Assembly (NCBI RefSeq): GCF_000025725.1
Contig: NC_013943.1
Span: 2,232,001 to 2,296,000, forward strand
DNA: 64,000 nucleotides
Origin: Denitrovibrio acetiphilus DSM 12809
GTDB lineage: Bacteria; Chrysiogenota; Deferribacteres; Deferribacterales; Geovibrionaceae
Direction of reading: 5' to 3'
Shown here piece by piece: positions 21,223 to 32,099 of the stretch. A program made the translations under genes and the position numbers. The notes beneath the pieces are model-generated. The model was not told the DNA's origin. It made no database searches and saw only the letters and a list, made by a program, of their open reading frames with translations. Every line of letters begins with the position of its first letter. The stretch's first letter is position 1.

Positions 21223-21687
21223 TTATATTACTGTCTTTTTCCTGTATATAAGCATGTTTGGTATTGCTAAGCCGAACGCTATGGCGCCCAGAATAAATAT
21301 CGTTTCAATACCATTAACAACGGCCGACTGGAGGGTTTCATTTGTAAGGTCTTCTCCAGCCAATCCGACAACAGCTATCATTGTTTTATAAGCATACACT
21401 CCCGGGATCATCGGTATTATAGAAGCAACAGTTATCACCTTCGGATGTGCATTATGCCTTTTTGCCCACAAGACTCCATAAACGCTGACCACTGAAGCCG
21501 ATACAAATGTTGCCCAGATAATCTCAACCCCCGACTGCATCAGAAGAGTTCTGACAAAATAACTCAATAAACCGCCTATACTGCAAAAAACAAGCTGGTT
21601 CTTGGGCACGTTAAACAAGACAGCAAAACCTGTTGCGGCAAAAGCAGCAGCGAGACAGTTAAGTATAAAATTCCCTAATATAAACAT
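21223..21687 (-). CDS. YjjB-like exporter subunit (ThrE C-terminal half)
   Basis: 154 residues, about five membrane helices, of the ThrE_2/DUF3815 family (IIPMIPGVYAYKTM motif). In E. coli, YjjB works with YjjP; the pair has been linked to succinate export, while fused homologues export threonine/serine. It starts three bases after the yjjP stop, with GGGGGTG upstream. Substrate here is not known. Confidence 0.85.
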   Translation of the reverse strand: MFILGNFILNCLAAAFAATGFAVLFNVPKNQLVFCSIGGLLSYFVRTLLMQSGVEIIWATFVSASVVSVYGVLWAKRHNAHPKVITVASIIPMIPGVYAYKTMIAVVGLAGEDLTNETLQSAVVNGIETIFILGAIAFGLAIPNMLIYRKKTVI

Positions 21688-21690
21688 ACA

Positions 21691-22464
21691 TCACACCCCC
21701 ATAATGCTCATCGAAAACACCATCCCAAGGGCTGTGGATAAGGTTATCAGGCTTGCCGCAACCCATCTGGCGACCCCCATGTTCTTAAACCCTTTCAATA
21801 TGTCAGACAAAGCGTTCACCAGAGGGAAACCGGGAACAAGCATAAGTACAGAAGAAAAAACAGCGACAGCTGGTTCATTGCCTAGATTATATTTAATAGA
21901 CATAGCGGATATGCATGTACACATGAAAGCGGAGCAAAAGTAGCTAACCACAGGGTTAAAAAGACGTTTCTTAAACTCCTGCAATATAATCATGCCGAGA
22001 ACGGAAGCGGTGGATGTTATGCCGAAAATAACAAAGTCTCCTCCGGCAAGCTTACTGAAACATCCGCAGGACAACCCCACGATAAACACCACCAGCCATC
22101 TGTTGTAACTAGGAGTTCCGGGGTTATCTATCAACGTCTCCAGCTCACGAAGGGATATTTTACCGCTTTCCGCAAGAACAATAGCCCGCTCAACCTCCAT
22201 TACCCTGCTCATATCTATACCTCTGTCCGGACAGCGGACAGTAATAGTTATCCAGTCATCCCCTTTCATAGCAGTAATAACCATAGAGCTTGATGAAAGA
22301 GAGATTTCTGTATGATCCATGCCGTAAAGTTTCCCTGTTCTCTCCACAAAACCACGGATAAGAACACTTTCAGCTCCATACTCCAAAAGGTTTCTGCCAA
22401 CCTTCACGCAAGAACGCAAAACGTCATGCAGTTCATTATCTATCTCCGTCTTTATATCATTCAT
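21691..22464 (-). CDS. YjjP-like exporter subunit (ThrE N-terminal half)
   Basis: 257 residues of the ThrE/DUF1212 family. A soluble N-terminal domain (GRNLLEYGAESVLIRG, then HTEISLSSSSMVIT) precedes five or so membrane helices with LVPGFPLVNALSDI. Together with the downstream YjjB-like gene it forms a two-component small-solute exporter, with succinate, threonine or serine possible from family knowledge. A succinate role would suit the fumarate-reducing genes elsewhere in the window, but that is speculation. Confidence 0.87.
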   Translation of the reverse strand: MNDIKTEIDNELHDVLRSCVKVGRNLLEYGAESVLIRGFVERTGKLYGMDHTEISLSSSSMVITAMKGDDWITITVRCPDRGIDMSRVMEVERAIVLAESGKISLRELETLIDNPGTPSYNRWLVVFIVGLSCGCFSKLAGGDFVIFGITSTASVLGMIILQEFKKRLFNPVVSYFCSAFMCTCISAMSIKYNLGNEPAVAVFSSVLMLVPGFPLVNALSDILKGFKNMGVARWVAASLITLSTALGMVFSMSIMGV

Positions 22465-22884
22465 GACACTTCCTAAATAATCAATATATGCACGCGATTA
22501 AAGATTAAAATACCCGTTATTGACATAATTAACCAGTTGTAAATCACAAATTAAAGACTAGCACCGCATGTAGAAGCATAAAAATAAGATATTTTAACCT
22601 GATTAAAGTATCGTAGAAGTGAGTATGGCTTTTATGAATTTGCTGAAAAACTTAATTCCTATAATCTTGAAATTATTTAAAATTGATGTACTTTAGGAAG
22701 GTCGGGGCAGGGCTGTAAGCCATTAAAATGTCTGAGACTTTTACTGGAAGATCTCACAATTAGCGTTGGGTTGACATATTTAATTTACAAAAGCAGACAG
22801 CCCTCTCGGACCCCCGATGTTTTATGCAACATTATTAAAGTTGATATTGAATATCATTATCTTAATCTTATTTCAAGCACAAAC
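22465..22884. other. 420 bp non-coding region at the 3' end of the ferrosome-like operon
   Basis: No convincing gene. It contains TTAGCGTTGGGTTGACA at 22760-22776, a near copy in inverted orientation of the sequence upstream of the ferrosome-like operon, and a strong Fur-box-like sequence at 22843-22861. A 60-codon plus-strand frame at 22771-22953 has no ribosome binding site and runs antisense into the FeoA-like gene. Confidence 0.6.
22843..22861. promoter_or_regulatory. Fur-box-like sequence
   Basis: GATATTGAATATCATTATC agrees with the E. coli Fur 19-mer (GATAATGATAATCATTATC) at 16 of 19 positions. It lies 24 bp beyond the stop of the FeoA-like gene and about 380 bp upstream of yjjP. No gene start is close enough for an ordinary operator. 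Confidence 0.5.
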
Positions 22885-23583
22885 TTAATCAACGGTGATC
22901 TTTTCTGCCGTTGCATTAGAAATAAATATCCTCAGCCCGTCAGCAGTACATAAAACCATATCAGGAAAATCATCCATATGAACAGATCTGCCGGCTTCAA
23001 TCCCTTCCAGAGCAAGGACAGTGCCTTCATAAACACCTTTCGCTTCCATAACATTAGCGTAAGTATCTTTGCTGATAATGTGCCTGACCACAAACCTTGC
23101 ATCTTTCCTGGCAAACGAAAACTGAATTTCTTTCCCCTCGCATTCCCCCAGAATACATGCTGCGTGGGCTTCCGAAAGCCTGCACCTGACACGATGATCA
23201 ACAAGTGTGACATATTCCATGTGAGGCAGCTTCTTAAGCACTTTCACACTGTCCCCGCCGGCGATCCCGAGCTTAAGCATCTCTTCTGCGATCAGCTCCG
23301 GTATCTCAAGGATGAGTTCCTCACCCTGCTCTTTCTCATATACGCTCCGCTGCTGTCCCGAAGCGGATTTATAATACAAGTGTCTTGCCAGCGAGCCGCT
23401 TACAGTACGGCTGCCTTTGTCAGTTGACAGTTTCAGCGTAGCGAGGTCGAGATCCCCCTTATTAATCTTACATACAAGTATACCAGAAGTTATGCCGTAC
23501 ACGCTTAGTTTTCTAGCCAAATCTGCTTCATTTATTGATTCTACGGTAAAAAAACCGCCTGATCTTGCTTTCGTCAGCTTCAT
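22885..23583 (-). CDS. FeoA-like domain protein of the ferrosome-like operon
   Basis: 232 residues, no signal peptide or membrane segment. The middle (about residues 95-150) resembles an SH3-like FeoA domain: LKLGIAGGDSVKVLKKLP, then VTLVDHRVRCRLSEAHAACILG. The flanking parts have similar strand-rich character and may be degenerate copies. FeoA domains modulate ferrous-iron transporters or act in DtxR regulators. It overlaps the 3' end of the first P-type ATPase gene by four bases, with GGAGGGG upstream, so it is co-translated with a metal pump. A regulatory or adaptor role for that pump is inferred. Confidence 0.65.
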   Translation of the reverse strand: MKLTKARSGGFFTVESINEADLARKLSVYGITSGILVCKINKGDLDLATLKLSTDKGSRTVSGSLARHLYYKSASGQQRSVYEKEQGEELILEIPELIAEEMLKLGIAGGDSVKVLKKLPHMEYVTLVDHRVRCRLSEAHAACILGECEGKEIQFSFARKDARFVVRHIISKDTYANVMEAKGVYEGTVLALEGIEAGRSVHMDDFPDMVLCTADGLRIFISNATAEKITVD

Positions 23584-25670
23584 CTTTCCCCTCCGCTTCT
23601 CATCGCATAAAGGAGCGTCCCCACAGTGGTACCGTTGTGCATCAAAGCGGATTGAAGAGGAGTTATAAGCCCGAGGAAGGATAGAAACACGGTGACACTG
23701 TTCGCTCCGATATTAGTAATGGAAACCTGCTTGATGGTTTTAACTGTTTCGGCGGATATCTTTCTTGCCCGCAATATCCCATGCAGGTTGTTCCGCAGGA
23801 GGATTACGTCGGATGTTTCTCTGGCGAGGTCTGCACCTTCCGGCATACTTACACCAACATGAGAGGCAAGAAGCGCAGGGGCATCATTGACTCCATCACC
23901 GACAAAAGCAACTTTGCAACCCTGAGAATTCAGCTCTTTTACCACACTCAGCTTGTCTTCAGGTTTCATTTCAGAATAAACCTCAGTAATACCGAGTTCT
24001 CCGGCAATACACATGGCAGTATCCTTATGGTCGCCCGTGAGCATCACGACACGCTTAACCCCTTCCTCTCCAAGCCTCCTGATAACCTCACATGCCTCTT
24101 CCCTCGGTACATCCTTAAGTGCTATCAGTCCGGCAAGTTCTCCGTTAACAGCTATATATAATATACTGCGCCCTGTCTTCCTCAGCTCATCACTTTCAGC
24201 ATCGGAATGGGAACAATCGATATGTTCATCTTCATGTACAAAATGCCTGCTCCCTGCAAGGACATGGCTGTCCTCAACATATGCAGACACACCGTGGGCT
24301 ATGATAAAGTCCACTTCACCCGTTTCCTTAAGCGCAATCCCTCTCTTCAAAGCTTCCTGTACAACTGCGGAAGCAATGGGGTGGCTGTAGTGCTCTTCTG
24401 CGCTTGCGGCGATACAAAGCAGGTCTTCTTCGCTAAGACTGCCGTATGAAATTATCTCGGAAACCTCCAGTGAGCCTTTGGTGAGGGTTCCTGTCTTATC
24501 AAAAACAATTGTGTCAACTTCTGCAAAATTCTCGAGTGCCTGAGCACCCTTGATAAAGATTCCTTCTGAGCCTGCGGTAAATATCCCTGCTTTGATTGCA
24601 GTGGGTATCACAAGCTTCAGAGCACATGAATAATCAACAGAGAGCACAGACGAAGCACGCCTGAAATCTCTGGTCAGAAGAAGAGCGGCAAGACCTATTC
24701 CAAATGTCACCGGAACCATCTTGTCTGCTGTTTTAAAGGCACGCACTTCTGATGTTGACCTGTTTTTAAGCGACCCTGTTATAAACTTAGCTATTCTTGC
24801 TGATGTCGTTTCTGCACCAACTTTAGTAGCTGCAACAATGATTTTACCTTCTGCTACTACAGTTCCTGCATAAACTTCCGAATCCTTCTCCACACTGACA
24901 GGCAGACTTTCCCCGGTAACCGAAGACTGATTTATAAGCCCTTCGCCGGAATAGACAACTCCGTCAACAGAAATCATCTCTCCCGCACCAATTATCACAA
25001 GCGACCCTACACAAACATCATCAATAGATACCTTAACCTCTTTCTGCCCCTGAAGTACCCATACATACTCCACATCGGGCTTTATGAGACTGCGGAGCAT
25101 TTTGTCTGACTTATACTCCGTTGACGCTTCAAGATAGTGCCCGAGGTTCAGCAGGAAAGTTATAGAGCCCGCAGTAAAATAGTCCTTGCGCAGTAGCAGC
25201 AGAGAGATAACTGCAGCATCCAGAACTTCTACACGCAGTCCGTCCCTCACAAGTGTTTCCACTCCGCTGAAAAGAACAGGCGCAGCACCAGCATAGGTAA
25301 GAGGCACCTTAAACCACGACGGAAGCCCCATTTTCAGAACCCACATTGTCCCCGCCCAATAAACATTTATAAGATCCGGTGTGTCATTAAGTTCTTCGTC
25401 AGCATAAAAAACCGCATGAGTAAATGTACTCAGTGAGTTCAAAAGCTGTTCAGTTATATCTGCTTCAGGATCGTGCACAACGACAAGACTTTGCGCCTTC
25501 TGGTTTATGCGGACAGACTTCACACCGTCCAGACACTCCAGAGAAGACTCCATAAGAGTAATGTCCAGAGCAGGATTGCCGAGCACCTCCGCCCTGAACC
25601 TTATTCTCCCGTTAGTCCTGTGGGCAATATCCACCCGCTCCAGTCCAGTCAGGTATTTATTTAATGTCAT
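23580..25670 (-). CDS. P1B-type metal ATPase, FezB-like
   Basis: 696 residues. N-terminal HMA-like domain with H17-R-T-N-G-R-I-R; actuator TGES at 252-255; transmembrane metal motif Y347-S-C349 followed six residues later by Pro, where CPC is usual; phosphorylation site D391-K-T-G-T; H430-P431; GDGVND at 591-596. All catalytic motifs are intact. The SC-type motif fits the P1B-6 group to which FezB, the ferrosome iron pump of Desulfovibrio magneticus, Rhodopseudomonas and Shewanella, belongs. The FeoA-like gene overlaps its end; small putative membrane-shaping genes precede it. Likely moves iron into a membrane-bounded store. The substrate is inferred. Confidence 0.82.
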   Translation of the reverse strand: MTLNKYLTGLERVDIAHRTNGRIRFRAEVLGNPALDITLMESSLECLDGVKSVRINQKAQSLVVVHDPEADITEQLLNSLSTFTHAVFYADEELNDTPDLINVYWAGTMWVLKMGLPSWFKVPLTYAGAAPVLFSGVETLVRDGLRVEVLDAAVISLLLLRKDYFTAGSITFLLNLGHYLEASTEYKSDKMLRSLIKPDVEYVWVLQGQKEVKVSIDDVCVGSLVIIGAGEMISVDGVVYSGEGLINQSSVTGESLPVSVEKDSEVYAGTVVAEGKIIVAATKVGAETTSARIAKFITGSLKNRSTSEVRAFKTADKMVPVTFGIGLAALLLTRDFRRASSVLSVDYSCALKLVIPTAIKAGIFTAGSEGIFIKGAQALENFAEVDTIVFDKTGTLTKGSLEVSEIISYGSLSEEDLLCIAASAEEHYSHPIASAVVQEALKRGIALKETGEVDFIIAHGVSAYVEDSHVLAGSRHFVHEDEHIDCSHSDAESDELRKTGRSILYIAVNGELAGLIALKDVPREEACEVIRRLGEEGVKRVVMLTGDHKDTAMCIAGELGITEVYSEMKPEDKLSVVKELNSQGCKVAFVGDGVNDAPALLASHVGVSMPEGADLARETSDVILLRNNLHGILRARKISAETVKTIKQVSITNIGANSVTVFLSFLGLITPLQSALMHNGTTVGTLLYAMRSGGER

Positions 25671-25673
25671 ATA

Positions 25674-25868
25674 TCAGCTTCTGTTTTTGTAGAGCAGAGT
25701 ATGATAAACAGAGAGTCCCACCAATGCAGTTCCGGCAGCGATATGAAGGGATCTTGACGTTCTGCCCCTCTGCATACCGGTATAAACCAGAACACCCATA
25801 GCACCCGCCATGGCGTATTTGGCATATCTGCGCTTTTTCTGTAACGGGGGTAAGCTCTTTTTCGGCAT
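25674..25868 (-). CDS. 64-residue small membrane protein
   Basis: Starts at ATG 25868, one base after the stop of the preceding gene, with GGAG six bases upstream; longer readings start inside that gene. A basic N-terminus (MPKKSLPPLQKKRRYAKY) is followed by a glycine/alanine-rich helix (AMAGAMGVLVYTGMQ) and a second helix (HIAAGTALVGLSVYHTLLY). Ends three bases before the ATPase gene. No family recognised. Its size and position in the operon suggest a membrane accessory of the compartment. Confidence 0.65.
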   Translation of the reverse strand: MPKKSLPPLQKKRRYAKYAMAGAMGVLVYTGMQRGRTSRSLHIAAGTALVGLSVYHTLLYKNRS

Positions 25869-25869
25869 A

Positions 25870-26196
25870 CTATTCTCCGCCCATCTCTGCCTGTACATCT
25901 CTTATCTGCTCTTTGAGCTCTTCGACTCCGCCCTGAAGACCTCCCCAAACTTTGACAACACCTTTCACAAGTGCTTTTTTCACAGCAGGATTTGTCAAAA
26001 CAAGTGCCAGCCCTGCACCAACCGCAAGACCTTTCACATATGAAGGCTCACGAAAGTTAAACCATTCTTTCAGATGATAGGCAGGATTAGGCTGGTAGTA
26101 CGCCTGCTGAGGATGAGACGGAGTATTCTGATAATAAGTCTGCTGGGGCTGAGCCTGATATTGCGGGTTTTCGTGTGATTCTTTTTTGTGATCCAT
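25870..26196 (-). CDS. 108-residue Gln/Tyr/Pro-rich protein with one membrane-like helix
   Basis: Residues 1-40 are low complexity, rich in Gln, Pro, Tyr and Asn (YQAQPQQTYYQNTP). A segment VKGLAVGAGLALVLTNPAVKKALV resembles the GMLVGAGVAMLMSSETVRSAL stretch of the 187-residue protein encoded upstream in the same operon, so the two are probably paralogous. The C-terminus is amphipathic and acidic, possibly coiled coil. Similar Gly-zipper helices occur in magnetosome- and ferrosome-type membrane proteins. Function unknown; a structural role at the compartment membrane is inferred. Confidence 0.7.
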   Translation of the reverse strand: MDHKKESHENPQYQAQPQQTYYQNTPSHPQQAYYQPNPAYHLKEWFNFREPSYVKGLAVGAGLALVLTNPAVKKALVKGVVKVWGGLQGGVEELKEQIRDVQAEMGGE

Positions 26197-26208
26197 TGTT
26201 ATATCTCC

Positions 26209-26541
26209 TTATTTCTTAGCTGGTTCGCATTTAGGTTCTGTTGTCTTTACGGAAGAATCCCAGAGATACTTCACCCCTGCGGATGCCGCTGTCATAACAA
26301 GTATAGAGCCCACAAGCCCCATCCCAAGTCCGCCGGCAAGAACCATTCCCGCCGCTGTGGCGACACCTGCGCCTGCAGCATCTTTTGCAGTGTTTGCAAC
26401 CGCTTCTTCTTTAGTTATTTTATTCTCTTTAACACTCTTCGCCTGTTTAGCGGCAGAGACTGCACCACCGATCACTGCTCCTGCCACCGCACCGCCTATT
26501 GCTATTCTGCCGGCGGGTATTCCTGTCACATGCCCTTTCAT
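26209..26541 (-). CDS. 110-residue glycine-zipper membrane protein
   Basis: Start chosen at ATG 26541, one base after the upstream stop and preceded by GAGGAGG; an earlier TTG in frame would lie inside the upstream gene. It has two glycine-zipper hydrophobic stretches: RIAIGGAVAGAVIGGAVSAA and AGVATAAGMVLAGGLGMGLVG, separated by a charged helix (KQAKSVKENKITKEEAV). Short glycine-rich hairpin proteins are a recurring part of organelle-forming gene sets. No catalytic motif is visible. The last residues carry a single Cys. Confidence 0.7.
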   Translation of the reverse strand: MKGHVTGIPAGRIAIGGAVAGAVIGGAVSAAKQAKSVKENKITKEEAVANTAKDAAGAGVATAAGMVLAGGLGMGLVGSILVMTAASAGVKYLWDSSVKTTEPKCEPAKK

Positions 26542-26542
26542 T

Positions 26543-27106
26543 TTATGCTTCCTCCTCTTCGCCACCAAGCGTTTTGGTAAATATATCAGTTAGTGCGGAA
26601 CGCACTGTTTCACTGCTCATAAGCATAGCCACACCAGCCCCTACCAGCATCCCTTTCAGGAAATCACTTCCGGTGGAGTTGACCATTTTTGAAACTTCGT
26701 TGAGCTGCGGATTATTCCCGAGCATATCTCCAAACATCCCCATGACTCCGCTGAGCGGATCCATCTCCTGATGATGTCCGCACCCTTCCCCGCCTGCCTG
26801 AGGCGGCTGATAGCCGTGTTGTACCGGTTCCTGCGGATAATACCCCTGAGGAGGCATTACAGGCTGCTGCGGGTACATCATCGGCTGAGGCATATAGCCG
26901 TATGCAGGCTGCTGCATATAATACGGAAATCCCTGCGGAGGCATCATCTGCTGCGGGTTCGGCATATATGGCTGCTGAGGGTATCCCCCCATCATTCCCA
27001 TCTCATAAGGATTAGCATACTGCTGAAACTCCGGTCGCCCGCCCTGAGGTTCTTCGGAACCCATTTGCTGTTGATGCTCTTCTTCGTGAGCATGTTCATC
27101 TTTCAT
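26543..27106 (-). CDS. 187-residue Pro/Gln/Met/Tyr-rich protein with C-terminal helix
   Basis: Start chosen at the third in-frame ATG (27106), which has GGAGGA seven bases upstream; ATGs at 27121 and 27133 are alternatives. The first 30 residues are acidic and His-rich (KDEHAHEEEHQQQ). Residues about 35-120 are low complexity, with repeated YPQQP, PPQGYYP and PQQMMPPQG units. The C-terminal 65 residues contain LKGMLVGAGVAMLMSSETV and an acidic tail (GGEEEEA). Such a tether-plus-membrane-helix design could scaffold or bind metal at a vesicle surface. No known enzyme domain. Confidence 0.72.
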   Translation of the reverse strand: MKDEHAHEEEHQQQMGSEEPQGGRPEFQQYANPYEMGMMGGYPQQPYMPNPQQMMPPQGFPYYMQQPAYGYMPQPMMYPQQPVMPPQGYYPQEPVQHGYQPPQAGGEGCGHHQEMDPLSGVMGMFGDMLGNNPQLNEVSKMVNSTGSDFLKGMLVGAGVAMLMSSETVRSALTDIFTKTLGGEEEEA

Positions 27107-27135
27107 GGCTTTTTCCTCCATACGATCCTCCATAT

Positions 27136-27435
27136 TTATTTTATCAAGTCTTTATACTTATCAAGAATCTTCTTGCTTACTTCAATATCAGGTGACCCCA
27201 GCAGTGCCTGCATGTCCTGCGGCGGAACGACAGAGGGGTCATAGCGCAGCACAACTGACTTCGCCATCATATTTATCCTTTTATCAAGAACTCCCGGAAG
27301 GCTCCCGCTTATCTCTCCGAGTTTTTTGCTCAAAGGGTCTTTCATAATCGCCGGATTAACCTTCAGACGGATTCGTCCGTCAACATGATGTACTACGGAT
27401 ATATATTTCTTAAGGTTAAGCAGGTCTTCAGTCAT
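27136..27435 (-). CDS. Stand-alone HMA-like domain protein
   Basis: 99 residues. It matches the N-terminal domains of both neighbouring ATPases: VVHHVDGRIRLKVNP aligns with IVHSSDGRVRLKYAG and IAHRTNGRIRFRAEV, and VLRYDPSVVPPQDMQALL aligns with their later HMA strands. It lacks the CxxC of copper chaperones, so it is an HMA_2-type fold, not a classical chaperone. It overlaps the end of the upstream ATPase gene by 8 bp. Likely a partner or delivery domain for the pumps. Confidence 0.75.
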   Translation of the reverse strand: MTEDLLNLKKYISVVHHVDGRIRLKVNPAIMKDPLSKKLGEISGSLPGVLDKRINMMAKSVVLRYDPSVVPPQDMQALLGSPDIEVSKKILDKYKDLIK

Positions 27436-29584
27436 GTTCCTCTCCTTTATACGCTGTCAATCTGGATGAATTGGCGAGAACACCGCCCGTGTGAGCTATA
27501 TGCAGCAATCCCGCCATAACGGGATTTATCAGACCGAAAAGCCCAAGCCCGGCACCTATTACATTTGAACCTGCCGCCAGCATAAAATTCTGATTAATTA
27601 TCTCTTTTGTCTTATGACTGAGGTCACGAAGGTAAATTATCTTTTCAAGGTCATCGTCCACCAGAGCGATATCAGCGGCCTCTATAGCCACATCAGAGCC
27701 TGCCGCCCCCATAGCTATCCCAAGGTCAGCCTGAGCAAGTGCAAGAACGTCATTAATGCCGTCCCCTATCATTGTTACTTTGTGCTTCTGCTGAATTTCA
27801 GCTATGATTTCTGCTTTTTTATTAGGAAGAACAGAACAGTATGTTTTATCAAAACCAAGCTTTTCAGAGAGGGGCATTGCAGTCTGCTCCTCATCTCCGG
27901 TGACAAGTATCAGTTCCTTCACCCCGTCAGCCCTAAGGCTATTGATAACGTTGCCGACACCGGCTTTTTCCAGCGTTCTAACAGCTACCATACCTACAAT
28001 TTTCTTCTCTCTGGCGACATAGAGCACACTGCTTCCGTCTTCTGTCATTTTTAATTTCTGTTTATCCAGATGAGATGTTTTAATATTGAACTTTGACATC
28101 AGCTTACGGCTTCCCACATACACTTTGCCATACTCCGTATCCGCCACAACCCCCATACCGAGGATAGTTTCGCATACGGCATGTTTCGAACCTGTAATCC
28201 CTTCACTTTCAGCAAGGGCGCGAACAGCGGCAGCCATAGGGTGCCTGTTGTGAAGTTCTGCGGCATAAGCATATTTGAGCAGTTTTTCCCTGCTGTAGCC
28301 TCTGGCGATGTAAACATCTGTAACTTCAGGAATATCTGTTGTGATCGTACCTGTTTTATCGAAGCAGAACGACTCCTGCGAGCCTGCCTCTTCGAGATAT
28401 CTGCCGCCTTTGATAAGTATCCCCTTTGAAGCGGCGTTACCTATAGCGGCACTCACGGCAGAAGATGCGGCAAGTATTGTTGAACAGGGGCATGTCATTA
28501 CCAACATGACAGAAAGCGTACGATAAAAGCTTCTGGTCAGAAGCCATGTACCCAAAGTCATAACAAAGCCGGCACTGACAAGTTTCTTTGCAAGTCTGTC
28601 CGCTGCAAGCTCCATAGGTGCTTTGTTTACTAGTGATTCTTCCACCGCCTGCAAAATTCTGGACAGATACGTACAGTCGCCTACTTTCTCTGCCTGAACA
28701 TATACAAGCCCTTCCTGAACATAGGTTCCGGCATAGACATAGTCACCTTTTTTACGATGCATAAGTTCCTGCCTGCCATTTACAGGAGCTTCGTTTATAA
28801 GCGCTTCACCTTTAAATATCTTTCCGTCTACAGATATCTTCTCACCTGTCCGTATGCTTACTACATCTCCGCAGCAGACTTTTTCAACAGGAAGCTCTAT
28901 CTCTTCGCCATCACGCAGAACAAAAGCCGTTTTGGCTGTTAAATCTAGGATATTTTTGATAGATTTTCGTGATTTCTCAGTAACATATCCCTGAATAAGC
29001 TCAGATCCGCTGTTCACCCATAATATCTCAAGAGCTGTCATAGTCTCACCGGCTCCGAGAGCGGCGGCAACACCCGTTCCGAGAAAACCGCTGAGGGCGA
29101 TCTTCTTCTCTTTGACAATTTCTCTGGAAGCTTTGATGAGCAGTGGGAGTGCGAAAAGAGATGTTACAAACCATAGAGGCGAAAAGACTGTGGATGCAAC
29201 AGTTCTACCGAGAAGTCTTTTAGAAAGCACCGATACTCCGAGAGCGGCGGAAAGTCCGGCAAACTCTACCTTACGGCTTCCGAAAGTGGAGTTTTTCGTT
29301 ATATCCTCACACTCGCAGTGACAGGATTTTGTGTCACAGCTCTTTTGTATGGGAGCAGAAGCATATTTACGCAGGACTATGTCTGCGATAGAGTTTGTAT
29401 TGATAACATTTTGATCAAAACCGACGATAATACTTCTGCACGGTAAATTACACCGAACATAGCTTACGCCTGCTTTGTTTAAGAGTGTCTGCTCAATGGA
29501 TGCAGCCTGACTGCCGGACAGCCCTGCATATTTAAGCCTTACACGTCCATCTGATGAGTGAACTATTTTTAACACATTAACCAC
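27428..29584 (-). CDS. Second P1B-type ATPase with degenerate actuator motif
   Basis: 718 residues. HMA-like N-terminus with H9-S-S-D-G-R-V-R; a Cys cluster C83-D-T-K-S-C88-H-C90-E-C92; transmembrane CPC at 365-367; phosphorylation site D409-K-T-G-T; RHPM; GDGIND. The actuator motif that should read TGES is N269-G-R-Q, so the Glu needed for dephosphorylation is missing. The membrane motif also lacks the usual downstream Pro. GTG start with AGAGGG upstream. First gene of the operon. It may be a slow, regulatory or partner subunit rather than a full pump; metal unknown. Confidence 0.82.
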   Translation of the reverse strand: MVNVLKIVHSSDGRVRLKYAGLSGSQAASIEQTLLNKAGVSYVRCNLPCRSIIVGFDQNVINTNSIADIVLRKYASAPIQKSCDTKSCHCECEDITKNSTFGSRKVEFAGLSAALGVSVLSKRLLGRTVASTVFSPLWFVTSLFALPLLIKASREIVKEKKIALSGFLGTGVAAALGAGETMTALEILWVNSGSELIQGYVTEKSRKSIKNILDLTAKTAFVLRDGEEIELPVEKVCCGDVVSIRTGEKISVDGKIFKGEALINEAPVNGRQELMHRKKGDYVYAGTYVQEGLVYVQAEKVGDCTYLSRILQAVEESLVNKAPMELAADRLAKKLVSAGFVMTLGTWLLTRSFYRTLSVMLVMTCPCSTILAASSAVSAAIGNAASKGILIKGGRYLEEAGSQESFCFDKTGTITTDIPEVTDVYIARGYSREKLLKYAYAAELHNRHPMAAAVRALAESEGITGSKHAVCETILGMGVVADTEYGKVYVGSRKLMSKFNIKTSHLDKQKLKMTEDGSSVLYVAREKKIVGMVAVRTLEKAGVGNVINSLRADGVKELILVTGDEEQTAMPLSEKLGFDKTYCSVLPNKKAEIIAEIQQKHKVTMIGDGINDVLALAQADLGIAMGAAGSDVAIEAADIALVDDDLEKIIYLRDLSHKTKEIINQNFMLAAGSNVIGAGLGLFGLINPVMAGLLHIAHTGGVLANSSRLTAYKGEEHD

Positions 29585-29615: not shown

Positions 29616-29684
29616 AACGCTAATGTGTCAACCCGAACGCTAACTTAAGTAAATATCATATAAGGTTAAATGTCAATCATATTA
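29616..29684 (-). promoter_or_regulatory. Candidate promoter and operator of the ferrosome-like operon
   Basis: On the minus strand TTGACA (29676-29671), 17 bp, then TTTACT (29653-29648). Across the expected start are direct repeats of TTAGCGTT (29643-29636 and 29623-29616), 20 bp apart, the first inside TTAGCGTTCGGGTTGACA. A weak Fur-like sequence (11 of 19 positions) at 29666-29684 overlaps the -35 box. Confidence 0.5.
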
Positions 29685-29846: not shown

Positions 29847-29884
29847 TAATCACCTGAGACAACTATCAACAGCAGGTATATTTG

Positions 29885-30814
29885 ATGAAACAACATACAG
29901 CCGGCACACCATATTGTGTTGGTGATGTCCACTTTTATACACTTGAGACTGAAACAGGCTTTGTGATGTTCGACACCGGACCTCCCACAACAGAAATGCG
30001 GGATTACCTGAACAATAACTTAAACCTGCAAAAACTCGAAAAAGTATTTGTCACACACTGCCACATAGATCACTGCGGAATGCTTGACTTTCTGGCTTCC
30101 AATTCAGACGCCGAAATATACATCCCCAGAGTCGATTCTATTATGTGCAGAAACAACCTAAAGCGTCTTAAAACTATACGGACACTGTGTATCGACATGG
30201 GTTTCAGTGCAGAAATAACAGAAAAAATGCTAGGCATGTACGATCACGTGAATTTTATTCCCGACAAACACAACATCCTCGAGGATTCGGTCGATGCACT
30301 CAAAGAGCTTAACCTCAGCTATACCTCCTTTAAATGGCATTCCCAGAGCGATATTGTCTTCATGCATGAAAACCTGGCAATTTCCGGCGACATAATGCTT
30401 CAGGATATATTTACAACACCGCTTATAGACTCAGACGCAAACGATCTTCAGTTGAGATTCAACAACTATGGGCACTTCTGCGAAGCTCTCGTAAGGCTGT
30501 CAAAAATAGGCAGCTATAAGCTCTTACCCGGGCACAGGAAAACTCTGGATGATCAGAAGCAATGGCTTATCTTTTATATTTCAAAAACGCTCCAGAGAAC
30601 GATAAAACTCCTGCCAAGATTAGGCAAGGAAAGCCCGGCAGAGATTGTACGTTCGATTATCTGCGATATGGATTCAAAACCTTATGACGCCTTTATAAAA
30701 TTATCAGAGATAATGTTTTTTAAGGATATACTGGCTAAACCGGAACTGTTGAAAGATACATTGAGCACCATAGGCTTATATGATAATTTCAGGCAGCAGC
30801 TCGACCTGCTCTGA
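29885..30814 (+). CDS. Metallo-beta-lactamase-fold hydrolase
   Basis: 309 residues. The metal motif THCHIDHCGM supplies HxHxDH; further ligands are the Asp in ISGDIM and the His in LLPGHRKTL. The C-terminal 100 residues are helical and may determine substrate. The ATG at 29885 is chosen over the TTG one codon earlier. Homologues are annotated only as MBL-fold proteins (glyoxalase II-like). It lies between the ferrosome-like operon and a nitroreductase/ferredoxin pair in the same direction. Substrate unknown. Confidence 0.8.
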   Translation: MKQHTAGTPYCVGDVHFYTLETETGFVMFDTGPPTTEMRDYLNNNLNLQKLEKVFVTHCHIDHCGMLDFLASNSDAEIYIPRVDSIMCRNNLKRLKTIRTLCIDMGFSAEITEKMLGMYDHVNFIPDKHNILEDSVDALKELNLSYTSFKWHSQSDIVFMHENLAISGDIMLQDIFTTPLIDSDANDLQLRFNNYGHFCEALVRLSKIGSYKLLPGHRKTLDDQKQWLIFYISKTLQRTIKLLPRLGKESPAEIVRSIICDMDSKPYDAFIKLSEIMFFKDILAKPELLKDTLSTIGLYDNFRQQLDLL

Positions 30815-30841
30815 CAGTTTAAAACAATATGGAGGTCTGAA

Positions 30842-31360
30842 ATGATAGATATACTCAGAAACAGAAGAAGCGTGCGGAAATTTACGGATAATAAAATTGA
30901 AACTGAAAAAATAAATATATTACAGGAAGCACTGCTGTTGTCCCCAACTTCCAGAAACATTGACCCCTGCGAATTCATAATGGTGCGGGACAAAATTACA
31001 CTGGAGAAGTTGTCAAAACTCAAACCTCACGGGGCGGCATTCATTAAAGAATGCGATACAGCTTTCGTAATATGCGGTGACACAGCCAAAAGCGATGTGT
31101 GTGTCACTGACTGCAGCATAGCATCAATAATCCTCCAGCTGGAAGCTGAATCGATAGGTCTTAAAAGCTGCTGGGCACAGGTGAATAAAAGATTTCATAA
31201 CGAAGAAATGTATGCCGAACAATATGTCAGAGAGCTTTTACACATCCCTGAAAACTTTACTGTTGTATCTGTAATCGCTGTTGGGTATCCCGCAGAGACA
31301 AGACCGCCAAAGACATCCGACAGTCTCAAAAAAGAAAAAATACATAATGAACGCTTCTGA
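30842..31360 (+). CDS. Nitroreductase-family flavoprotein
   Basis: 172 residues, short for the family. The FMN-binding start NRRSVRKFTD and PTSRNIDPCEFIMV are clear, and ESIGLKSCWAQVNKRF plus VSVIAVGYPAE complete the fold. It has GGAGG at a good distance and overlaps the ferredoxin gene by 14 bp, so the ferredoxin is the probable electron donor. Substrate unknown. Confidence 0.85.
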   Translation: MIDILRNRRSVRKFTDNKIETEKINILQEALLLSPTSRNIDPCEFIMVRDKITLEKLSKLKPHGAAFIKECDTAFVICGDTAKSDVCVTDCSIASIILQLEAESIGLKSCWAQVNKRFHNEEMYAEQYVRELLHIPENFTVVSVIAVGYPAETRPPKTSDSLKKEKIHNERF

Positions 31361-31562
31361 ATATATTGCAGAGATAAGCAGCAGATGCACAGGCTGCGGT
31401 GTATGCATATCAAAATGCCCTGAAAAGGCACTGGAATTTTTCACTGAGGATTATGTTAAAAGGGCGCGATGCATTGAAACGATATGTACCGGATGCGGTA
31501 TATGCGCCAGTCATTGCAGTTTCTACGCAATAAAAATCGTCAAAAAAAAGCCGACCAATTAA
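31347..31562 (+). CDS. 2[4Fe-4S] ferredoxin
   Basis: 71 residues from ATG 31347. Two clusters are visible, CTGCGVCISKCP and CTGCGICASHCS. In the second the usual Pro after the fourth Cys is Ser. The gene overlaps the 3' end of the nitroreductase gene, and the two probably form an electron-transfer pair. It ends 26 bp from the end of the convergent Fur-family gene. Confidence 0.88.
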   Translation: MNASEYIAEISSRCTGCGVCISKCPEKALEFFTEDYVKRARCIETICTGCGICASHCSFYAIKIVKKKPTN

Positions 31563-31587: not shown

Positions 31588-31989
31588 TCAGTTGTTGCAC
31601 TTCGGGCATGCACCCTGAAGCATAACGGCGACACGCTCGTACTTGCGCCCTGTCTGCCTGACAGCCTCTTTGATAAAAGGCTCAGTATCAACATCCATAA
31701 GATCTTCAACATTACCGCAGTGCGGGCATGTCACATGAACATGATCTCCGATGTTGATCTCATAAACCGGCTTTCTGCCGTGGACAGGCACTTCAGTAAG
31801 GATATCTTCTTCAACGAGAAGATGGATATTCTTATAAATTGTCGCAAGACTTACGGAAGAATAGAAGTTTTTCACTTTTTCATGAAGGTCTTCAACACTC
31901 GCATGTCCCATTTTTTTGATCTCCTCCAGAATAAATATTCTCTGAGGAGTGACCTTGAGGTCCTTTTCTCTTAAAATTTTGTCATACAT
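31588..31989 (-). CDS. Fur/PerR-family metalloregulator
   Basis: 133 residues from ATG 31989 with GGAG eight bases upstream. N-terminal winged helix (VTPQRIFILEEIKKMGHASVEDL, SLATIYKNIHLLVE recognition helix); C-terminal metal domain with HVHVTCPHCGNVEDL and a second CxxC (ACPKCNN), the structural zinc site. Fur, PerR and Zur cannot be separated by eye. It is divergent from the Mn/Fe-type ABC importer, which is a natural target, and lies 2 kb from the ferrosome-like operon. Confidence 0.88.
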   Translation of the reverse strand: MYDKILREKDLKVTPQRIFILEEIKKMGHASVEDLHEKVKNFYSSVSLATIYKNIHLLVEEDILTEVPVHGRKPVYEINIGDHVHVTCPHCGNVEDLMDVDTEPFIKEAVRQTGRKYERVAVMLQGACPKCNN

Positions 31990-32099
31990 AACGCACACTC
32001 CGGCTTTTCACAATACATAATAATCAGCTTTTAAACATTGTCTAGTGATAATTTTACTTATTGAGCTTATATTTACCATTAAATATTAAATGCTCGTGA

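Follow-up and report, generated by a model that had tools for sequence, protein, structure and literature searches.

A probable ferrosome-type operon of Denitrovibrio acetiphilus encoding homologs of FezB, FezC and the magnetosome protein MamC

The ferrosome operons of Desulfovibrio magneticus, Rhodopseudomonas palustris and Shewanella putrefaciens are reportedly the subject of Grant 2022, and the fez genes of C. difficile are said to be that of Pi 2023. Compared by description, the operons of all four species share with the locus of D. acetiphilus a P1B-6 pump accompanied by small membrane proteins, and that of D. magneticus also shares FezC. Ferrosomes and magnetosomes have been described as separate iron organelles. 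Homologous membrane proteins in the two would give a handle on a common origin and would bear on the role of MamC before magnetite. One review, in the passage available, treats the two as independent entities, and the literature passages that mention both ferrosomes and MamC, a set that lies outside the primary ferrosome papers, draw no link between them.

The eight-gene operon and its conserved proteins

All positions refer to the window, the whole 64-kb stretch of DNA that was analysed. The fez operon consists of eight minus-strand genes between 29584 and 22885, in which neighbours overlap or are separated by 1–12 bases. They are given here in the 5′ to 3′ order (ATP1, HMA protein, PQ-rich, MamC-like, PQ-rich, FezC, FezB, FeoA-like).

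27428–29584, minus strand: ATP1, second P1B-type ATPase, 718 aa, GTG start (Pfam/NCBIfam; own clade, 100/100)
27136–27435, minus strand: lone HMA_2-like protein, 99 aa, without CxxC (Pfam HMA_2, below cut-off)
26543–27133, minus strand: PQ/M-rich protein with a C-terminal glycine-zipper hydrophobic segment, 196 aa (position and type as in the Vibrio cluster)
26209–26541, minus strand: MamC-like glycine-zipper protein, 110 aa, gene start at 26541 (NCBIfam MamC)
25870–26196, minus strand: PQ-rich single-TM protein (PQ108), 108 aa, of the YtxH/DUF6110-like scaffold type (HMM chain)
25674–25868, minus strand: FezC ortholog, 64 aa, two heme-ligand-type histidines (phmmer to D. indicum FezC)
23580–25670, minus strand: FezB, P1B-6-type ATPase, 696 aa, TGES and HN motifs kept (FezB clade, 100/100)
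22885–23583, minus strand: FeoA-like protein, 232 aa, probably three tandem FeoA/SH3-like domains (Pfam FeoA, domain 1)

Eight further genomes of this family encode FezB orthologs (64–73% identity), and the entire gene set is present in unchanged order in all of them, giving nine genomes in total. The dN/dS values for ATP1, FezB and the FeoA-like gene were 0.02–0.10 (measurable pairs only). Gene order kept in eight other genomes together with these values indicates that the arrangement is not due to chance; the eight-gene operon is real and conserved as a unit. Its absence from two other Denitrovibrio genomes counts against a ferrosome reading.

P-type ATPase domains were detected in both pumps by Pfam, and HMA_2 scored above cut-off in FezB and just below it in ATP1 and in the lone HMA protein (for the latter E = 1.7e-6, 28.5 bits against a cut-off of 30). 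The two P1B ATPases and the HMA-like and FeoA-like proteins named in an earlier note on this DNA were recovered, as were its eight closely spaced minus-strand genes. The 64-residue membrane protein listed there is present, and its identity as FezC had been overlooked. The description of the small proteins as low-complexity or glycine-zipper proteins falls short for 26209–26541, a MamC homolog that had been missed, as had the loss of TGE in ATP1 and the RNA downstream. Across the genomes covered, fez is joined by ATP1 and the FeoA-like gene in this family alone, in agreement with the variant fez architecture proposed there.

Downstream of the operon, two adjacent minus-strand genes at 21223–22464, with ThrE_2 in 21223–21687 (Pfam), resemble a threonine/serine exporter gene split in two. 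A YoeB/YefM-like toxin-antitoxin gene pair was seen by eye directly after the operon in the second genus (L042, 11894–12395; L043, 10782–11304).

Both features looked for in a P1B-6 pump were found in the product of 23580–25670. Its TM4 reads VDYSCALKL where Cu and Zn pumps have CPC, and LMHNGTT near the C-terminal end places in the last TM helix an HN motif, the published mark of P1B-6 pumps (PMC9374683). In maximum-likelihood trees the protein falls into a clade of 26 members from several phyla (support 100/100), including the pumps of D. indicum, Arcobacter, Azospirillum, Vibrio and others; ATP1 and the CPC pumps encoded in these genomes lie outside it. A search of Alphaproteobacteria, with few candidates scored per genome, found one FezB. 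Motifs and phylogeny identify 23580–25670 by sequence as a FezB ortholog. The phylogeny put forward as a check in the earlier note was carried out, and the ATPase joined FezB at 100/100 and not the Cu or Zn/Cd pumps; the comparison of the small proteins with other fez clusters likewise gave matches. The fez-type pattern suggested there, a P1B-6 pump with small membrane proteins, is borne out by both results. A minimal two-gene version was seen on a Deinococcus plasmid (L061, 3488–6118), consisting of a DUF6110 protein and a FezB-clade pump with VDISCVLK in TM4.

The genome G003, with a FezC-like gene 3′ of FezB, is one that we take to be Desulfurispirillum indicum. The 64-aa membrane protein matched D. 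indicum FezC (WP_013506634.1) at 2e-9 by phmmer. Heme b binding has been demonstrated for D. indicum FezC, whose histidines are conserved and which forms a homodimer in models (PMC11334425). Among the fez and magnetosome-cluster FezC members, invariance is confined to four columns, two of them His42 and His56, 13 residues apart. Pfam DUF4405 gave E values of 0.005–0.2, and only 0.076 for the heme-verified D. indicum FezC itself; DUF4405 alone is therefore too weak to call FezC. By orthology and by its invariant histidines, the 64-aa protein is a FezC ortholog, a predicted two-histidine cytochrome encoded with FezB.

Homologs of the lone HMA protein stand first in the fez clusters of Vibrio, Arcobacter and D. 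indicum, and the protein is likely to serve in metal hand-over. Counterparts of 26543–27133, of the same position and type, occur in the fez clusters of Vibrio and two other gammaproteobacteria. A PQ108-like protein adjoins FezB in all phyla examined, and PQ108 itself is connected by an HMM chain to DUF6110-type neighbours. The small membrane proteins have homologs at the matching place in other FezB clusters and are candidate proteins of the FezA/FezX or DUF6110/YtxH kind. In the FeoA-like protein, Pfam FeoA matched domain 1 (E = 1.7e-7, 31.6 bits against a cut-off of 23), and domains 2 and 3 gave weak matches or none, the weak match of domain 2 being to FeoA. An AlphaFold model (pLDDT 83, from only three sequences) displays the strand-helix pattern three times, and Foldseek returned only weak matches, including weak FeoA structures. 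The modelled protein probably consists of three tandem FeoA/SH3-like domains.

A MamC homolog and its magnetosome relatives

The NCBIfam MamC model (NF038051, equivalog) matched the product of 26209–26541 at E = 1e-16 and 61 bits, below the cut-off of 100, and three of its relatives at 44–69 bits. Because the score lies below the cut-off, the protein is regarded as a homolog and not as MamC proper. With an HMM of true MamC only, the fez proteins scored 35–67 bits (window protein 63.7) against at most 10.0 in 3300 shuffles. The MamC model matched in 9 of 51 genomes of the phylum, once each and every time within the fez operon, and in none of 14 control genomes. A tblastn-confirmed genome scan with the protein gave, among the matches listed, loci of Deferribacterales, MamC genes from two Magnetospirillum loci and one additional MamC-type locus from an alphaproteobacterium, and identity to MamC at the Magnetospirillum/alphaproteobacterial loci was 32–37%. 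MamC as read from the loci served as alignment reference.

A profile trained on the fez proteins matched 16 of 398 Pseudomonadota genomes. Two of these have fez clusters and 14 have MamC-type proteins, one being a Magnetospirillum and the others, where checked, being confirmed by MamC, MamD or magnetochrome models; the 398 genomes offered no third setting. The MamC-like gene lies between the PMP-rich and PQ108-like genes in the clusters of Vibrio and two other gammaproteobacteria, and in one alphaproteobacterium and Arcobacter it is followed by a YtxH- or PQ108-like gene and then FezB. No match was obtained by tblastn of plasmids with the protein, and the MamC HMM found one on an Arcobacter plasmid. 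The structure model is of low confidence (pLDDT 62), which counts against the explanation proposed below. On profile scores and context, 26209–26541 is a homolog of the magnetosome protein MamC. Of the magnetite-binding acidic pair (Glu66/Asp70), the Asp is replaced in all three aligned fez proteins, twice by Asn and once by Lys. Since this Asp is not conserved, a magnetite role is not implied.

With a FezC profile trained on fez members, small proteins adjacent to MamC were detected at three magnetotactic loci, scoring 18–28 bits (best of 3000 shuffles, 12.6). In a wider search, FezC-type proteins were present in 9 of 11 MamC-bearing genomes of the class to which these loci belong, as against 8 of 37 others (Fisher p = 0.0005, or 0.007 without the three training genomes, with relatedness not corrected). 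Two new cases adjoin magnetosome genes, MamX, MamZ and MamH in one and MamH in the other, with MamD/Mms6-like genes near both. In a 4,719,581-bp genome, the FezC-type gene is distant from MamC. No FezB was found in the three MamC stretches, nor in these MamC-bearing genomes by the genome FezB search. The presence of a MamC-family protein and a FezC-type cytochrome in the clusters of both organelles hints, at the level of sequence, at common parts.

Two-histidine FezC-type proteins in magnetosome clusters were located at L176 5045–5374, L177 4919–5218, L145 9272–9595, L147 7543–7917 and L149 5583–5861, with MamX, MamZ, MamH, MamC or MamD-like neighbours. DUF2202 (ferritin-like) adjoins MamC in a magnetosome cluster (L147, 5966–6835) and was also seen, as a weak match (E = 0.0024), within the Arcobacter fez cluster (L056, 4336–5019). 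It is perhaps a third family common to ferrosome and magnetosome clusters.

ATP1 and the RNA downstream of the operon

ATP1 has an HMA_2-like N-domain, a linker with a conserved CxC pair and CPC in TM4, and it forms its own clade in maximum-likelihood trees (100/100). Full-length orthologs (59–64%) occur in exactly the nine operon genomes among 51 of the phylum, and DKTGT, TGD, GDGIND, HP and CPC are kept in all nine. In the same nine proteins the TGE of the A domain is replaced by NGR; TGE is retained by all the other pumps in the alignment. The TGE glutamate drives dephosphorylation in P-type ATPases, and ATP1, which is without it, is thus predicted to be phosphorylated with poor or no dephosphorylation. 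Its dN/dS of 0.04–0.09 denotes strong purifying selection and indicates that the gene is not decaying. ATP1 departs from turnover-capable P-type ATPases in its A domain, and from CtpC-type P1B6-like pumps (CPC in TM4 and HN in TM6) in having CPC with HI in place of HN. Its relatives on actinobacterial plasmids are CtpC-like, are paired with DUF1490 genes and keep TGE. As the phosphorylation site is kept and TGE is lost, ATP1 is most likely a metal-responsive phospho-switch or a partner of FezB and not an ordinary pump. An intact FezB next to a conserved ATPase whose dephosphorylation motif has been lost would offer a natural experiment on P-type pumps.

A Fur box follows directly after the last stop codon of the operon, and the elements associated with it are as follows.

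22843–22861, minus strand: Fur box GATAATGATATTCAATATC, best match in the whole window, 17–18 of 19 positions in five relatives
22876–22848, minus strand: sigma70-like promoter TTGAAA-N17-TATTCA, overlapping the Fur box
22700–22842, minus strand: structured noncoding RNA (covariance model, covarying pairs, no Rfam family)
22760–22780, minus strand: invariant RNA loop TGTCAACCCAACGCTAA, complementary to the operon leader
29622–29643, minus strand: target element TTAGCGTTCGGGTTGACACATT in the 5′ leader, 59–38 bases before the ATP1 start codon

In the window, the Fur box is found only downstream of the operon and none precedes the first gene, which counts against the explanation proposed below. 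Six genomes keep this promoter at the same spacing, the -35 box varying slightly. The structured stretch measures 139–143 bases, and a covariance model trained without Denitrovibrio found the window RNA at E = 1e-12 as its sole match in the D. acetiphilus genome, with no match in 45 other genomes. Twelve of 41 pairs have changed on both sides and are still paired, against 1–3 in slid-partner controls. Rfam holds no family for the RNA (one chance match, E = 2, in L039). The near-invariant loop UGUCAACCC[A/G]ACGCUAA is complementary to the ATP1 leader in six genomes. Pairing was scored by local complementarity, full-length RNA duplex energies being uninformative, and was the best local match in 6/6 genomes, with 0–5 of 1000 shuffles equally good; no second exact copy of the leader element's pattern exists in the D. 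acetiphilus genome. The RNA occurs in six genomes only, and it and the loop and leader elements are absent from the three second-genus genomes carrying the operon. These sequence data suggest that a Fur-controlled downstream RNA probably tunes the operon by leader pairing.

The gene at 31588–31998 (minus strand), situated 2 kb upstream, encodes a Fur-family regulator that may act at the Fur box. Between it and the operon, on the plus strand (29882–31562), are genes for MBL-fold, nitroreductase-family and 2[4Fe-4S] ferredoxin proteins.

Proposed function and comparison with known systems

The operon probably encodes a ferrosome-type iron-storage system. Counted in favour are the FezB clade, the HN motif, FezC homology, the gene order in nine genomes, the operon-bound MamC-like protein, the core order in other phyla, the covarying RNA and the conserved leader pairing. 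Three ferritin-family genes are present in the D. acetiphilus genome, which therefore has other iron stores; this counts against a ferrosome. In the proposed mechanism, the PQ-rich single-TM proteins (25870–26196 and 26543–27133) would gather FezB into patches that become vesicles, and the HMA protein would pass Fe(II) to FezB for pumping into the lumen. FezC, as a two-histidine b-type cytochrome, would carry electrons across the vesicle membrane and set the Fe(II)/Fe(III) ratio, and the MamC-like hairpin may coat the vesicle and limit or organise the mineral. The FeoA-like protein would be a cytosolic adaptor, ATP1 a metal-responsive phospho-switch or partner of FezB, and the Fur-controlled RNA would tune the operon through pairing with the leader.

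The small proteins might instead cluster the pump into an iron efflux platform in the plasma membrane, without a vesicle, as in mycobacterial PacL1-CtpC, where PacL1 is a small single-TM scaffold clustering the P1B6-like pump CtpC. DUF6110 proteins related to this type accompany P1B-6 pumps, and PQ108 resembles them. FezB homologs are, however, tied to organelles in the literature on D. magneticus and C. difficile, and reportedly in R. palustris and S. putrefaciens, and descriptions of PacL-CtpC systems include neither FezC nor a MamC-family protein; an efflux platform is considered unlikely. It is somewhat less doubtful, though still improbable, that ATP1 is a normal second metal pump for other cargo (Cu or Zn) in which the NGR change is tolerated. 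Its CPC, linker CxC, remaining catalytic motifs and purifying selection would fit such a pump, but the dephosphorylating glutamate is Arg in 9/9 orthologs and is retained in the other aligned pumps.

Convergence of glycine/alanine-rich membrane hairpins as the source of the MamC similarity is very hard to sustain. Both proteins are indeed Gly/Ala-rich and the score is under the equivalog cut-off, but shuffles of the same proteins stay at or below 10 bits against 64, the polar motifs KITxEEA, KDAAGxGxAT and KYLWD are common to the fez protein and MamC, and neither the control genomes nor the 398 genomes supplied a match in another setting. The two copies of the loop-leader element face inward like terminal repeats and could be read as transposon ends or a protein-binding site flanking the operon, with no independent RNA downstream. 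Against this, no target duplication was seen, the downstream copy belongs to a loop that is invariant in a covarying RNA, this RNA is preceded by a promoter and Fur box that are themselves conserved, and in L040 loop and leader have changed together (GCGTC with GACGC). Transposon ends were dropped since the downstream copy sits in the covarying RNA, and the alternative as a whole is quite unlikely. The ferrosome-type system remains the preferred reading. Whether it forms part of an inherited ferrosome/magnetosome toolkit, one organelle being built partly from its counterpart or the two having arisen from one shared iron-vesicle module, with the non-cycling ATPase switch and the iron-regulated leader-pairing RNA added in this lineage, is evenly balanced in our judgement. 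As a cultured type strain with a complete genome carries the operon, all these readings are testable.

In the passages of ferrosome literature on D. magneticus, R. palustris, S. putrefaciens and C. difficile, ATP1, a triple FeoA and the RNA are not described. The zinc efflux platform CtpC-PacL1 of M. tuberculosis resembles the present locus in combining a P1B6-like pump, with CPC, and a small single-TM scaffold. CtpC-type ATPases are among the closest full-length plasmid relatives of ATP1, which differs from them in NGR for TGE and HI for HN and lies outside the CtpC-type pumps in the tree. The magnetosome genes (MamC, or Mms13; mamGFDC/mamXZ) have in common with the operon a MamC-family protein and a FezC-type protein adjoining MamX/MamZ/MamH; they differ in that no FezB was found in the stretches searched and the magnetite-binding Asp is absent from the fez protein. 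In the Vibrio sp. THAF190c plasmid cluster (L059) and in L085, ATP1 and the FeoA-like gene are lacking and no FezC was found between the genes, which is true also of the gammaproteobacterial L086; the order HMA, PMP-rich, MamC-like, PQ108-like, FezB in the first two, and PMP-rich, MamC-like, PQ108-like, FezB in L086, is that of the present operon. The D. indicum fez cluster is without ATP1, has no MamC-like protein by HMM and contains extra genes for a 206-aa and a YtxH-like protein, but it shares a FezB 37% identical over the full length, a FezC ortholog with both histidines, an HMA protein, a PQ108-like protein and adjoining feoAB.
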